DNA of 41,060 nucleotides from Thermoplasmatota archaeon. GTDB taxonomy: Archaea > Thermoplasmatota > Thermoplasmata > Thermoplasmatales > Thermoplasmataceae. The notes beneath the pieces are model-generated. The model saw only the letters and a program-made list of their open reading frames with translations. It searched no databases and was not told where the DNA came from. The position numbers and the translations under genes were made by a program. Below are positions 1,037-5,820 of the stretch, piece by piece; position 1 is the stretch's first letter; every line of letters starts with the position of its first letter. Location: contig JAMDBW010000085.1 of the NCBI GenBank assembly GCA_023487765.1, positions 1 through 41,060 on the forward strand. Reading direction: 5' to 3'.

Positions 1037-1057
1037 CCGCTCAGTGTATGTGTTACT

Positions 1058-1067
1058 GTATATAATA
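1058..1067 (-). promoter_or_regulatory. TATA box of rnpB
   Basis: The minus strand reads TATTATATAC here. It is about 26 nt upstream of the inferred RNase P RNA 5' end near 1031-1036, the normal archaeal TATA-to-start spacing. Confidence 0.6.
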
Positions 1068-1186
1068 GTTTTTATTTTGGCGAAGACGCGATTATACAAA
1101 AAATGCCTTTTTTAGCGGTTTCACGACGTAATTTCGTGCAAGTTTGTACCGATAATCTTAAGAACTGACGCTGCCATCCTTAGAAA

Positions 1187-3028
1187 ATGAATAGCAAAAT
1201 ATTGCTAGCCATTACACTCTCTGTATTGATGATGGGTAGTGCCGCAGCTATGGCCGCCGACTCACAAAGTCCCAGTGTCGGTCAGCCACAGTACCAGCTT
1301 GGCCACTACTCCTTCAATACTACGGGTAGCGTGGTTAACAACCTGAGCGTAAATTTCGAGGATCAGTCTTCGAAAATAGTGAATAGCATGCAAATAAGCG
1401 GAGCCAACAAATCGGCTCTCAATACTAACTTAAACCCAAAGATGGGTGAGGATATGAATCTAGAATACATGTCCAATGCAACAATTTTCTCACAGGAAAA
1501 GATGAACACACTGGTATTCATGTCTTTTGGTAAAGGGACGGTACCTCCAAATATGACTCTGAATTTTACTGAGCCTGTTAAAAATGTCACCGCAAAGGTA
1601 TCATCCGGCATGACTTTCTCCGGCTCTTTCGGATCATACGTGCAGTCTAACCTGTCAACTGGCGTCTCGTGGTCACTGTTCAAGATAGAGAACTCCAGGT
1701 ACAATGGATTCTTCTTCACTAACGGAAAAGTGAAAGTGAACACAACCACGAACGAAAGCCTCACAACAACGGGATCTGGCGGCACCTCAATGCTTATTTC
1801 CGGGTTCATCAGCAGCGGCAGCCTGAACAACGTTATGGAGAAATACGCAATGGAACACGAGCATGAAGGAAACTTGTTCAATTACAACAATACAACCGGG
1901 ATGGTGACCGGGAAATTCGTCAATTTTAACTTCAACAGTTCCAGCGGAAACATAACTAACTACGAAATCAACAGTTCAAAACCCATGACGGTATTCACGG
2001 AGATAAATGCATCAGGAAACGGAACAATAGGCAGTTATCGCAACTTCCCGGCATTCAGCCTCAATCAGCCGGTAGTGTATGGAAGCGTATTTTTCTACGC
2101 CAACAGCAGCTACATCTATGCAATACATAACAACCCGGCTCTTCAGATGGGACTGACGCTTGACAATGGAACCATGACGTTCAAAGTGCCAACCGGATTG
2201 AATGTGACGAGTTTTGTCCGTCTTTCAGGATCGGAATCGGAAAAGATGAACTCCTCGACAGTTTCATCCAATGTCAGCGCGGATCAGAACCAGACTCTCG
2301 GGCTGAACCACGAGGTTGAAGTCGGAACGACAACATTCTTCATACACAACGCAAGCATCAGGAGCTTCCTCACGGTTTCAGGAGTCGGAGCATCTGCCAG
2401 GTTCAACAGCACGACAAACGAAATTGTCGTTAACACAACAAAATCTGCACAGATAAACTTCGTCTCTCCTCCGGGCCTCAGAAGCATTAACGAAACGGAT
2501 TTCAGGGACATTAAATATGCTCTTGACCACGGAAACCTTGGAGCACAACTATCTATAGAATCCCTGAACGGCATTGCAGCTAACTACACGACCTACTATA
2601 ACGGATCACTCAAGATGCAGCTCCTGTCGGTCTCAAACGGACAGGTAAAAATAGCGGTCTCTTCAACGAGCCATCATGGAACAAACGTTGCTTTCTTCGT
2701 GAATAAGACGTTCTTGAATGCAAGCAGTGGCAAAATATACGTATCCTTCGACGGGAATTCGATAACCCTGACCAGCACCCTTAACGGAACACTCACGGTG
2801 AACAGTTCCACGAACGCATACTATGCTGTAGTTCCGGAACAGGGCGGTTATCTTGTTGTGGTGCACGTACCACATTTCTCTAACCACACCATTGTAATAT
2901 CGGATACTTCTCTGAGCACAAGTCCGTTGAACCTGCCAGTTACGCTGTCTCCGCTTGAACTCGGAATCGTTGGAGTCGCTGTTGTGGCGGTCATGGCAGG
3001 AATAGTTGTGGTGATTAGAAGAAGATAA
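1187..3028 (+). CDS. Secreted, membrane-anchored N-glycosylated surface protein
   Basis: This is a 613-residue protein. It has a signal peptide (roughly residues 1-24, hydrophobic core LLAITLSVLMMG then AAAMAA). The extracellular part is rich in Asn, Ser and Thr and very poor in Cys. A single C-terminal membrane helix at about 588-610 is followed by RRR, giving an outside-facing, C-anchored topology. I count about 34 N-x-S/T sequons. This fits a cell-surface glycoprotein of a wall-less Thermoplasmatales cell. No catalytic domain is recognised. It stands alone between the divergent rnpB and the downstream patch. A T-rich run after the stop probably terminates its mRNA. Confidence 0.85.
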   Translation: MNSKILLAITLSVLMMGSAAAMAADSQSPSVGQPQYQLGHYSFNTTGSVVNNLSVNFEDQSSKIVNSMQISGANKSALNTNLNPKMGEDMNLEYMSNATIFSQEKMNTLVFMSFGKGTVPPNMTLNFTEPVKNVTAKVSSGMTFSGSFGSYVQSNLSTGVSWSLFKIENSRYNGFFFTNGKVKVNTTTNESLTTTGSGGTSMLISGFISSGSLNNVMEKYAMEHEHEGNLFNYNNTTGMVTGKFVNFNFNSSSGNITNYEINSSKPMTVFTEINASGNGTIGSYRNFPAFSLNQPVVYGSVFFYANSSYIYAIHNNPALQMGLTLDNGTMTFKVPTGLNVTSFVRLSGSESEKMNSSTVSSNVSADQNQTLGLNHEVEVGTTTFFIHNASIRSFLTVSGVGASARFNSTTNEIVVNTTKSAQINFVSPPGLRSINETDFRDIKYALDHGNLGAQLSIESLNGIAANYTTYYNGSLKMQLLSVSNGQVKIAVSSTSHHGTNVAFFVNKTFLNASSGKIYVSFDGNSITLTSTLNGTLTVNSSTNAYYAVVPEQGGYLVVVHVPHFSNHTIVISDTSLSTSPLNLPVTLSPLELGIVGVAVVAVMAGIVVVIRRR

Positions 3029-3030
3029 TC

Positions 3031-3050
3031 CCTTCTTCTTTATTTTTTTT
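3031..3050 (+). terminator. T-rich terminator after surface-protein gene
   Basis: A pyrimidine-rich stretch ending in a run of eight T lies immediately after the stop codon at 3026-3028. Oligo-T tracts are the usual archaeal termination signal. Confidence 0.5.
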
Positions 3051-3176
3051 GATTCCAAATCAGTAATTTCTTAATCAATAATTCTTGTTTCCCGCAATAC
3101 CCAGAGATAACATCAATAGTGTTTGTGCAAAGTTAAGGCCATGTCGCTTATATGCTGTGCACGCCGAGGAGAATAA

Positions 3177-3410
3177 ATGACTGGCCAATGTAAGTTTGGT
3201 ACGGGAAATTACCTGTTTATCCAGTTAGCAGGGGATACATGCGTCTCAGTGATGAGAGGTATGAAGTTATCCATTCTGCAAATTCACAGGCTGCAGCGAG
3301 AGCAAGCGAAATACAGCACCGTTAGAGCGAATCTGGAAGGCCGAATCCGTGCCGCATGGATGAAGGCTGATACAGAGGCAATAGAAGGCAGACGGCGTCA
3401 GAAAGTTTAA
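3177..3410 (+). CDS. Hypothetical protein, 77 aa, doubtful
   Basis: The ORF starts with ATG, with a GAGGAGA Shine-Dalgarno-like sequence just before it and a TATA-like TCGCTTATATG about 26-30 nt upstream. The C-terminal half is basic and probably helical. No motif or family is recognised. It precedes the dprA-like gene by 77 bp. It may be a genuine small member of the accessory patch or a chance ORF; the translation signals are the only support. Confidence 0.3.
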   Translation: MTGQCKFGTGNYLFIQLAGDTCVSVMRGMKLSILQIHRLQREQAKYSTVRANLEGRIRAAWMKADTEAIEGRRRQKV

Positions 3411-3487
3411 GTCTGAATTGTATGTTAATCATACTATGATGGATATAAGCAATCCAAAAGATCGTTGGAAAGGAGGAAGATCTAAAA

Positions 3488-4171
3488 ATGGGAATAAGAT
3501 CAGTGTCTACTGAGTTACTTTTGGGCCGCGCATTGAACGATATAGAAATAAAACATTCACCAAGAGTGCTCTATATTTCAGGATCAATGAGTGTTCCCGT
3601 GCCAAGTCCACGGGTAGCAATCGTCGGAACCAGAGAACCGTCAGACGAAGGGCGCAAGACGGCCTTCAGCCTCGCATCAGAGCTAGCTAAGAGGGGAGTG
3701 GTAGTGATTAGCGGTTTAGCGAAGGGAATAGATTCTGAGGCTCACAAAGGAGCGATAGATGCGAAAGGTGAGACGATAGCCGTGCTGGGTACTCCACTTA
3801 ATATATTCTACCCTAAAGAAAACCGACAACTTCAGACAGAGATCATGACTAACCATCTTGCAGTGAGCCAATTCCCGTCGAATAAACCAGTTTATAAGAG
3901 CAATTTCGTAATCAGGAATAGGACTATGGCTCTTTTGTGCGATGCTTCAATTATAGTGGAAGCTGGAGACTCAAGCGGCACCCTTAGTCAAGATTGGGAA
4001 GCGTTGAGGTTGGGCAGACCACTTTTCATATGGAAATCTGTGTTTAATGTTCCCGACCTCAAGTGGCCTGAGCAGATGATCAGTTATGGCGCGAGAGTAC
4101 TCGACGACTTATCAACAGTGTTTGAAGAGTTGCCTGCGGAAAATACTCCTCTAGGATTCCCACAATGGTAG
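3488..4171 (+). CDS. DprA/Smf-like DNA-processing family protein
   Basis: The 227-residue protein has the Rossmann-type SMF/LOG core. It shows VAIVGTREPSDEG (43-55), SGLAKGIDSEAHKGA (75-89), a LGTPLNIFYPKEN loop (100-112), RNR followed by the core strand CDASIIVEAGDSSGT (143-165) and a final WEALRLGRPLF strand. Bacterial DprA binds incoming ssDNA and loads RecA. The protein is shorter than bacterial DprA and lacks the N-terminal SAM-like and C-terminal winged-helix domains, so it is essentially the bare core. A strong AAAGGAGG motif sits 9-10 nt before the ATG. A ComF-like phosphoribosyltransferase follows on the same strand 169 bp downstream. The role in this organism is inferred: handling foreign DNA, or nucleotide signalling. 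Confidence 0.8.
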   Translation: MGIRSVSTELLLGRALNDIEIKHSPRVLYISGSMSVPVPSPRVAIVGTREPSDEGRKTAFSLASELAKRGVVVISGLAKGIDSEAHKGAIDAKGETIAVLGTPLNIFYPKENRQLQTEIMTNHLAVSQFPSNKPVYKSNFVIRNRTMALLCDASIIVEAGDSSGTLSQDWEALRLGRPLFIWKSVFNVPDLKWPEQMISYGARVLDDLSTVFEELPAENTPLGFPQW

Positions 4172-4174
4172 CTG

Positions 4175-4190
4175 CTTTTGGAATCAAAAG
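4175..4190 (+). terminator. Small hairpin after dprA-like gene
   Basis: A perfect 6-bp inverted repeat (CTTTTG, loop GAAT, CAAAAG) begins 4 bp after the dprA stop. It may be a transcript-end or processing hairpin. No long T run follows directly. Confidence 0.35.
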
Positions 4191-4340
4191 TCTTCAGTAT
4201 ATATCTCTATTTTCTTACACTCCTCGACCGTCCTCACCAGATACAAATATTCTTCAGTCAATGAAAAATACAAAGACTTGGACCATCTGGCTTAAACAAG
4301 ACAGAATGGTGACTCGAAATGGCGATGGGTAAGTTTACCT

Positions 4341-4859
4341 ATGTCACGTTTTATTGCGGAATCTTTATACAATTATCTTTCCGATTCGCCGTTCCTGAAG
4401 ACCTTTGACAGATATAAAGTACTAATTCCAATACCAAGAAGTAATCCAGTGCCTGAAGACGGGCTGTGGGTTCCTAAGAGAATCGCAGATGAGATGGTCC
4501 GTAAAGGGTTAGGAAACGATGTGGTTCCCTGTTTAATTCGCGCGAAGCCTGTAAACAAGTCTAGTCAGAGTGTTTCTTCGCAAAGACCTCTCCCGAGTGT
4601 GCACTACGACTCCTTATCTGTGGAACAAACTGTCACAGAACTCAACGAAGTAATTCTCATAGACGGTGTTATAACACGTGGATCAACACTAATCGCCGCC
4701 GCAAACAAGTTAATTGACAGCTTTCCAAAAATTAAAATTGAATCATTTGCAGCAATTAGAACTATAAGCAATCCCTTAGAGTTTCGCAACTGGTTCAATC
4801 CGGTGGAAGGAACTATAACGTTTCGTAACGGGCCTGGAGACACCATTAGAACCCCCTGA
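4341..4859 (+). CDS. ComF-like phosphoribosyltransferase
   Basis: The 172-residue type I phosphoribosyltransferase fold shows YKVLIPIPRSN (25-35) as the early strand and EVILIDGVITRGSTL (103-117) as the PRPP-binding loop, the equivalent of VLLVDDVxTTG. The second acidic residue of the usual DD pair is Gly here. No N-terminal zinc ribbon typical of bacterial ComF is present. The frame stays open upstream to 4296 without a start codon, so the N-terminus may have eroded or begin at a non-canonical codon. It follows the DprA-like gene, a pairing also known from bacterial competence genes. The substrate is not predictable. Confidence 0.7.
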   Translation: MSRFIAESLYNYLSDSPFLKTFDRYKVLIPIPRSNPVPEDGLWVPKRIADEMVRKGLGNDVVPCLIRAKPVNKSSQSVSSQRPLPSVHYDSLSVEQTVTELNEVILIDGVITRGSTLIAAANKLIDSFPKIKIESFAAIRTISNPLEFRNWFNPVEGTITFRNGPGDTIRTP

Positions 4860-4860
4860 A

Positions 4861-5103
4861 TCATGTTTGAAGAAATTGCCTGACATGTGTCTCTTCCACC
4901 CTCTCCAGGTCAGATGATCTGATGATTATGACACTCTTTGCGATCTTCCTGTGCGTTATGTCGTCCAGTAAGCCGTGCCTGTGATACCTGTACCTCCCCT
5001 TCCATGTGGCCGTATCGTCACCATAGAAGCTCTGGCAAAACCCTGTCTTTTCGCTGCTGCTCAAGTCCTTTCGCAGGCTGAAGACGATGATTGAACCATC
5101 CAT
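4861..5103 (-). CDS. Small conserved-looking archaeal protein, 80 aa
   Basis: The protein has a basic, aromatic middle segment (WKGRYRYHRHGLLDDI) and a C-terminal strand SVIIIRSSDLERV. This resembles small archaeal hypothetical proteins I have seen near replication genes, but I cannot name a family. It lies 63 bp downstream of GINS51 on the same strand and may be in its operon. It converges with the phosphoribosyltransferase gene, with only about 1 bp between the stops. Function unknown. Confidence 0.55.
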   Translation of the reverse strand: MDGSIIVFSLRKDLSSSEKTGFCQSFYGDDTATWKGRYRYHRHGLLDDITHRKIAKSVIIIRSSDLERVEETHVRQFLQT

Positions 5104-5166
5104 TGTGCTAATGCATTAACATAGGGCGGCACATGTATTAGATTAACTGGGGGGAATCCAAGGTCT

Positions 5167-5820
5167 TCAATTCAGATTAATTTTAATTGCGGACTTTCTC
5201 TTGATTAGCAGTTCAGCGAATTTTTCAGGTAAGTATACCAGGTCATTGTCATACAGGTAGTAGTCCCTTTCCGGTTGCGCAATTGGCGGCTGATCAGCCA
5301 GTATTCTGACAAAAATAAAATTCTGTTTCTCATCCTCTTTGGGAACAGCTTCCTGCCGGGCTTCTTCGTGCCGCTGTACCGGGGCAGGGGGCTCCATTAC
5401 TTTCGAAGGTTCCGGGACTTCCTCAGGCGTATTGTTCTTGTTAAGGAGCAAGTTATACTGATCGCGCATCAAGTTGTGCAGGTTAACTATGAACTCCTTT
5501 TCCTCGGGTGTAAGGGCATTCATGACTTCTGAGTCGAGATCATATATGGAAAGGGTTGCAATTTTATCAAATCTTCTCTGGAACAGGGACTTGAAATCTC
5601 TTTCAATGTCATCCATCCTGTCTTTGATCTTTATATAATTCCCTATGTCTGTCTTTCCGAGATATCCATCTGCCTCCTCTTTCAGGGTTTCAAGGGCTGC
5701 AGTAACGTTCTTGTAAAAGCTTGGCTCAAGTTTCTTCAGCTTTTTTGATCTAATCTCAACCCTGAGAAATGACCTAAGTTCCTCGGAAACTTTGTCAATC
5801 TGGGCTGGGTTAAGACTCAT
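5167..5820 (-). CDS. gins51: GINS complex subunit Gins51 (Sld5-like)
   Basis: The protein has 217 residues in the archaeal Gins51 order: a helical A domain (about 1-130), a Pro/Glu-rich flexible linker (about 130-165, PEEVPEPSKVMEPPAP) and a small C-terminal B domain ending in RDYYLYDNDLVYLPEKFAELLIKR. GINS joins MCM helicase and the Cdc45/RecJ homologue in the replicative CMG helicase. In Thermoplasma a single Gins51 forms a homotetramer, and no Gins23 is seen here. The tatD-like gene lies 34 bp upstream on the same strand, so the two are probably co-transcribed. Confidence 0.85.
   Translation of the reverse strand: MSLNPAQIDKVSEELRSFLRVEIRSKKLKKLEPSFYKNVTAALETLKEEADGYLGKTDIGNYIKIKDRMDDIERDFKSLFQRRFDKIATLSIYDLDSEVMNALTPEEKEFIVNLHNLMRDQYNLLLNKNNTPEEVPEPSKVMEPPAPVQRHEEARQEAVPKEDEKQNFIFVRILADQPPIAQPERDYYLYDNDLVYLPEKFAELLIKRKSAIKINLN

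Follow-up and report, generated by a model that had tools for sequence, protein, structure and literature searches.

What is a gene for a DprA-like protein doing next to a gene for a ComF-like phosphoribosyltransferase (PRTase) in the genome of an archaeon? Both names belong to DNA uptake in naturally transformable bacteria. The earlier note on the 41,060 nucleotides of contig JAMDBW010000085.1 from a member of the Thermoplasmataceae (hereafter the window) saw in the two genes the best candidate for an undescribed system. Here, we report that the two genes belong to ShosTA, a phage-defence toxin-antitoxin that has already been described, in an archaeal version. It is thus a real pair of a known kind, and what is added is that archaea have it in a compact form, that its toxin is disabled in this genome and that, across archaea, it is the toxin gene which is broken and not its partner. 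The features of the locus are collected in Table 1.

Table 1. Features of the shosTA locus and of its surroundings in the window.
Feature	Position	Strand	Basis
Shine-Dalgarno-like GGAGG before shosA	3472..3476	+	sequence
shosA, DprA/SMF-core antitoxin, 227 aa, intact	3488..4171	+	Pfam, PADLOC, AF2 model, dN/dS
shosT, PRTase toxin gene overlapping the end of shosA, split by one frameshift	4165..4859	+	frameshift-aware alignment; single overlapping frame in relatives, e.g. G017
ShosT N-terminal piece, 55-aa ORF in another frame	4165..4332	+	collinear with ShosT N-terminus of L044 (80% ShosA identity)
Frameshift site; window one base shorter than L044	4318..4335	+	frameshift-aware alignment, L044 comparison
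ShosT C-terminal PRTase piece, 172 aa, ComF-like ORF of the earlier note	4341..4859	+	PADLOC ShosT E 1e-18
PRPP-binding loop LIDGVITRG, with Gly for the second Asp	4656..4682	+	Asp-Asp invariant in 43 aligned ShosT
Variable insert with shosTA	3071..5165	.	homology to congener G002 stops at 3070, resumes at 5166
Larger 4.1-kb insert relative to congener G005	1038..5188	.	~67 bp there

Identity of the two genes

The DprA/SMF protein and the PRTase ORF follow each other on the forward strand where the earlier note had placed them, and profile searches of the window ORFs gave family matches far beyond chance for both. Window ShosA consists of the SMF/DprA Rossmann core alone (Pfam DNA_processg_A, E 2e-53), so the minimal core described from the letters was read correctly. 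The general libraries match the second ORF weakly (comF/Pribosyltran), and it is the PADLOC defence library that settles the identity of both proteins, labelling them ShosA, the antitoxin, and ShosT, the toxin. The PADLOC ShosA model matched window ShosA with E 3e-71, the PsyrA model scored well below it, and the match to PDLC03961 began only at model position 94. The same two profiles were matched by 39 of 39 related ShosA and 43 of 43 related ShosT proteins.

The predicted structures agree with this assignment. The AF2 model of window ShosA (pLDDT 93.3) had DprA 3uqz as its best PDB match and also matched E. coli ShosA 8zva. Residues that line up with the ssDNA contacts of H. pylori DprA are present in window ShosA: the arginine of GTR, and the lysine and phenylalanine of the KxxF that precedes RNR. 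A ShosT model of the related locus L057, built with 43 rows (pLDDT 95.9), gave Z 11.3 with H. pylori ComF, 10.9 and 10.4 with E. coli ShosT 8zvc and 8zvd, and 8.5 or less with PRTases outside ComF and ShosT. A PDB sequence search with ShosT returned no ShosT entry and fold comparison alone found it, with Foldseek TM-scores between archaeal and E. coli ShosT that were modest (0.42–0.45).

Such folds are also what a competence or DNA-processing pair of DprA and ComF would have, but by profile score these belong to a different family. The window proteins reach 159.7 bits against a cut-off of 191.15 for the DprA equivalog TIGR00732 and 18.9 bits against 233.55 for the ComF family TIGR00201, the best profiles being those of ShosA and ShosT. 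The distribution of the pair is moreover patchy and no third gene recurs beside it; a role in competence is hence most improbable, and the pair is a genuine two-gene conflict cassette, as the earlier note had leaned towards. The small ORF at 3177–3410, put forward as a possible third gene, matched no family in the profile searches and had no recurring homologue in 80 related loci; the commonest neighbour cluster, an ABC ATPase, was found at 5 of 81 loci.

A DprA and PRTase pair of E. coli protects against T7 and lambda, and DprA homologues have been named as antitoxins, including those of PsyrTA (syrTA) and RqlHI (PMC9122126), which resemble ShosTA in this antitoxin. ShosTA itself is in the literature as a toxin-antitoxin that defends against phages (PMC9122126, PMC12593503) and has been listed in archaea, with a higher frequency in Asgard genomes (PMC11291487), and the system can therefore not be called undescribed. 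According to a review of Pu et al. 2025 (PMC12593503), ShosT has phosphoribosyltransferase and pyrophosphatase activity and upsets purine metabolism, with duplications in the DNA, filamentous growth and cell death as the outcome; ShosA is a DNA-binding protein that probably brings in recombination factors, and T7 Gp0.7 is one trigger. The suggestion that the pair makes or consumes a nucleotide signal finds no support; the published model of ShosT is one of purine-pool disturbance.

With E. coli ShosTA (ShosA 8zva/9vzo; ShosT 8zvb, 8zvc, 8zvd) the archaeal pair shares a DprA-like protein and a PRTase of the same folds, and the PADLOC profiles match both. The N-terminal regions of the E. coli proteins are however absent from archaeal ShosA and ShosT. 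Long ShosA has about 95–115 N-terminal residues that are missing from window ShosA, and the L057 ShosT alignment spans residues 175–398 of 8zvc (175–400 over the E. coli structures), so that archaeal ShosT is without the roughly 170 residues preceding the PRTase part in E. coli. Because of these absences the archaeal pair looks, from sequences and models, like a compact version of ShosTA. Pairs on bacterial plasmids (Allochromatium pALVIN01, Paracoccus p77023, Sulfitobacter, Chryseobacterium) resemble that of the window in having a short ShosA (~224–232 aa), 44–46% identical in the alignment, and a PRTase gene that overlaps the end of shosA, but are bacterial, intact and plasmid-borne and fall outside the archaeal clade. 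Since these short pairs also are without the ShosA N-terminus, we take this region to be a mark of the E. coli subtype and not of the whole family. In prophage-type pairs (e.g. Burkholderia phage Mana) the DprA-like gene adjoins a PRTase gene and usually comes first, but ShosA is long (~290–330 aa) and ShosT only distantly similar.

The toxin gene and its lesion

The PRTase ORF named in the earlier note is present, but the gene to which it belongs is larger, starts inside shosA and is broken by a frameshift, which had been missed. A ShosT profile was made with 53 intact relatives, and a frameshift-aware alignment of window ShosT to it covered model positions 1–213; a single frameshift, at about 4321, was the only lesion. 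In G017, of the same family, the second gene encodes 249 aa in one frame with its start inside the end of the first gene. The closest relative, Thermoplasmata archaeon YP2.bin63 (L044, 80% ShosA identity), has a frame open through the point of the window's frameshift, and the remaining part of its ShosT lies beyond the end of its contig. The family has a PRTase-fold toxin with a PRPP loop, as judged by profile and fold, whereas the window copy is frameshifted and carries Asp-Gly in place of the two loop aspartates that were invariant in 43 aligned ShosT proteins. The same Asp-Gly is found in the decayed copy of the congener G004, and from the sequence the loop of the window is probably weakened. 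The antitoxin gene is intact, and the comparison of window ShosA with L044 (dN 0.118, dS 1.22) indicates purifying selection.

The N-terminal piece of shosT still looks constrained (pN/pS ~0.22 against L044), and the lesion is therefore either recent or an assembly error. If the latter, the window would encode a working ShosT. A single metagenome bin, 69.8% complete, stands behind the frameshift, the two halves of ShosT are otherwise collinear with L044, and the contig carries an assembly-graph repeat at its left end. However, unrelated assemblies also show a broken shosT with an intact shosA and the converse was not seen, whereas random errors would hit both genes alike, and the change from DD to DG in the PRPP loop, in common with G004, is an independent alteration. 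We therefore consider an error rather unlikely and the lesion to be presumably biological. As for the repeat, positions 1–127 of the window are an exact copy of 827–953, the length of a common assembler k-mer, and it is probably an assembly-graph artefact.

ShosT could also be made as two pieces, by a stop at 4332 and a ribosome restart at the ATG at 4341, with the pieces reassembling afterwards. The gap from stop to ATG is a mere 8 bases, but no Shine-Dalgarno-like sequence was seen before 4341, intact relatives have one continuous ShosT, and the breaks in other archaea lie at many different positions, which makes this reading very improbable. Programmed frameshifting was rejected for the like reason that the breaks in 18 loci of the nearest set are scattered and comprise single-base losses, gains and plain stops; no slippery site was recognised in the window. 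Homopolymer sequencing error as a general cause was likewise rejected, most shosT breaks being outside long homopolymers. The ShosT piece of the window had no match in phage records. A horizontally acquired ShosTA whose toxin has recently been disabled in this genome is the most likely reading, unless the frameshift is an assembly error.

One-sided breakage of shosT among archaea

Frameshifts or in-frame stops were found in 18 shosT genes in 68 loci, scattered in position and over the branches of the tree. These loci come from the 80 nearest, which were ranked on ShosA, and their 0 broken ShosA were accordingly left out of the evidence. Because a list ranked in this manner cannot show ShosA breakage, Thermoplasmatota and one further archaeal phylum were searched with both genes and the frames then checked, giving a less biased sample. 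This held 17 intact pairs (3 and 14 in the respective phyla), ten cases of an intact ShosA with a broken or missing ShosT (G000, G086, G259, G788, G784, G529, G780, G543, G492 and G468, the toxin of the last perhaps being too diverged to detect), with two uncertain ones set aside, and five in which both genes were damaged or gone (G004, the second copies of G645 and G754, G697 and G681). An intact ShosT with a damaged ShosA was found 0 times in the two-phylum sample. With the near-identical G543 and G492 counted once, the nine independent cases against none gave p 0.004 in a sign test. Kept outside the count of 10 to 0 were G711 (whose break near the start may reflect an alternative start site), G649 (with ShosA divided between contigs), the contig-edge cases G641 and G653, and G665 (a ShosT fragment without ShosA).

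Loss of the toxin first is expected of a toxin-antitoxin, since an antitoxin lost first would be costly. The breakage of 10 to 0 fits this expectation, and the one-sided decay in natural genomes is evidence, if not proof, that the pair behaves as a toxin-antitoxin in archaea; we found no published experiment on ShosTA in this capacity in archaea. Alternatively, genomes that have lost the toxin may keep ShosA because it has a separate task, such as DprA-like DNA binding or protection against toxins arriving on other elements. Window ShosA is intact with signs of purifying selection, and an intact ShosA without any ShosT is found in G543/G492 and L045, but its retention may just reflect a recent loss of the toxin, and in G645, G681 and G754, which no longer have ShosT, the remnants of ShosA are themselves in decay. 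Such an independent role appears unlikely.

Two Nitrososphaerota bins (L110 and L111) have identical ShosA and 99.7% DNA identity, with shosT frameshifted in L111 alone, which is either a very recent toxin loss or an error. In Bathyarchaeum (L071 and L081, of G543 and G492) an intact ShosA is followed by just about the first 18 residues of ShosT. By a plain ORF test 15 of 57 archaeal loci had short downstream frames, as against 7 of 64 prophage-type loci (p 0.03). We do not claim that breakage is special to archaea, since the prophage partner is a different subtype.

Genomic setting, spread and meaning of archaeal ShosTA

In the closest congener, G002 (~85–88% nucleotide identity), homology to the window breaks off on either side of the pair. 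Past the left break G002 has, at the site of shosTA, an ATPase gene with AAA_14 and DUF4143 domains (L225:3822-4850); its flanks are on two different contigs and its insert is thus seen in part. In G005 the equivalents of window positions 1037 and 5189 lie about 67 bp apart, and G003, G001 and G004 are similarly compact. The insert is followed by core genes, for a GINS-like protein and then the proteasome alpha subunit and SBDS. Given these breaks and the core genes that follow, shosTA occupies a variable chromosomal site, in keeping with the accessory-looking patch described from the sequence. The ATPase gene of G002 suggests a small hotspot between a surface-protein gene and the GINS-like gene.

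Of 380 Thermoplasmatota genomes, 6 have short-form ShosA and 5 others have weaker, longer forms; in a second archaeal phylum the short form occurs in about 26 genomes out of 398. This census was seeded with ShosA, the shosT profile having too few conserved columns; a ShosT profile search over the phylum also matches ordinary PRTases, and high-scoring sites alone were kept. The 80 nearest loci in GTDB genomes were mostly archaeal (Thermoplasmata, Bathyarchaeota, Nitrososphaerota, Archaeoglobi, Caldarchaeum, Hadesarchaea, Aenigmatarchaeota), and ShosT lay directly downstream of ShosA on the same strand in 68 of the 72 with enough downstream sequence. The adjacency, which might have been limited to this genome, is therefore widespread. 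In the tree a clade of 71 rows, nearly all archaeal, had a support of 95/92, with bacterial plasmid and prophage copies outside. The cassette most likely moves horizontally.

ShosA from bins labelled Binatia, Acidimicrobiia and Gemmatimonadetes (L103, L105 and L121) fell inside archaeal branches, with sequences that match one another or a Cenarchaeum copy exactly or almost exactly; these contigs may be misbinned archaeal DNA. G054, of the same order as the window archaeon, has a ComF-like PRTase gene followed by a long DprA-like gene (L003:1411-3106, reverse strand), the reverse of the shosA-shosT order, and this is possibly a separate DprA/ComF-type pair.

Taken as a whole, an archaeal ShosTA toxin-antitoxin cassette with its toxin disabled here and its antitoxin intact is a highly probable explanation. 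ShosT would be a PRPP-dependent enzyme of the PRTase fold that harms the cell when unrestrained, and ShosA a DprA-like nucleic-acid-binding protein that would prevent or counteract this harm. By analogy with the E. coli system, infection would upset the balance between the two so that the cell no longer supports the virus; an anti-viral role in archaea would parallel the protection documented for the E. coli pair (PMC9122126). In this genome the function of ShosT would have been lost through the frameshift and probably through the weakened PRPP loop too, with ShosA remaining whole. What holds for the mechanism in E. coli may not apply to the archaeal pair, because the N-terminal regions are absent from archaeal ShosA and ShosT. 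Counting against the explanation, the published antitoxin model involves homologous-recombination factors, and archaea have RadA in place of RecA.

A further, more tentative proposition, for which we hold limited confidence, is that archaea have their own compact ShosTA subtype made of the DprA core and the PRTase core alone. Its antitoxin would have to act with neither the N-terminal domain nor bacterial RecA, and its toxin would repeatedly and independently be mutated off while the antitoxin is kept. If so, natural archaeal populations would record the cost of the toxin. A suspected unknown system has become a named one, which in reduced form is spread over several archaeal phyla. With such compact pairs one could test directly what parts of the two proteins are needed, and whether the recombination-based antitoxin model works with RadA instead of RecA.
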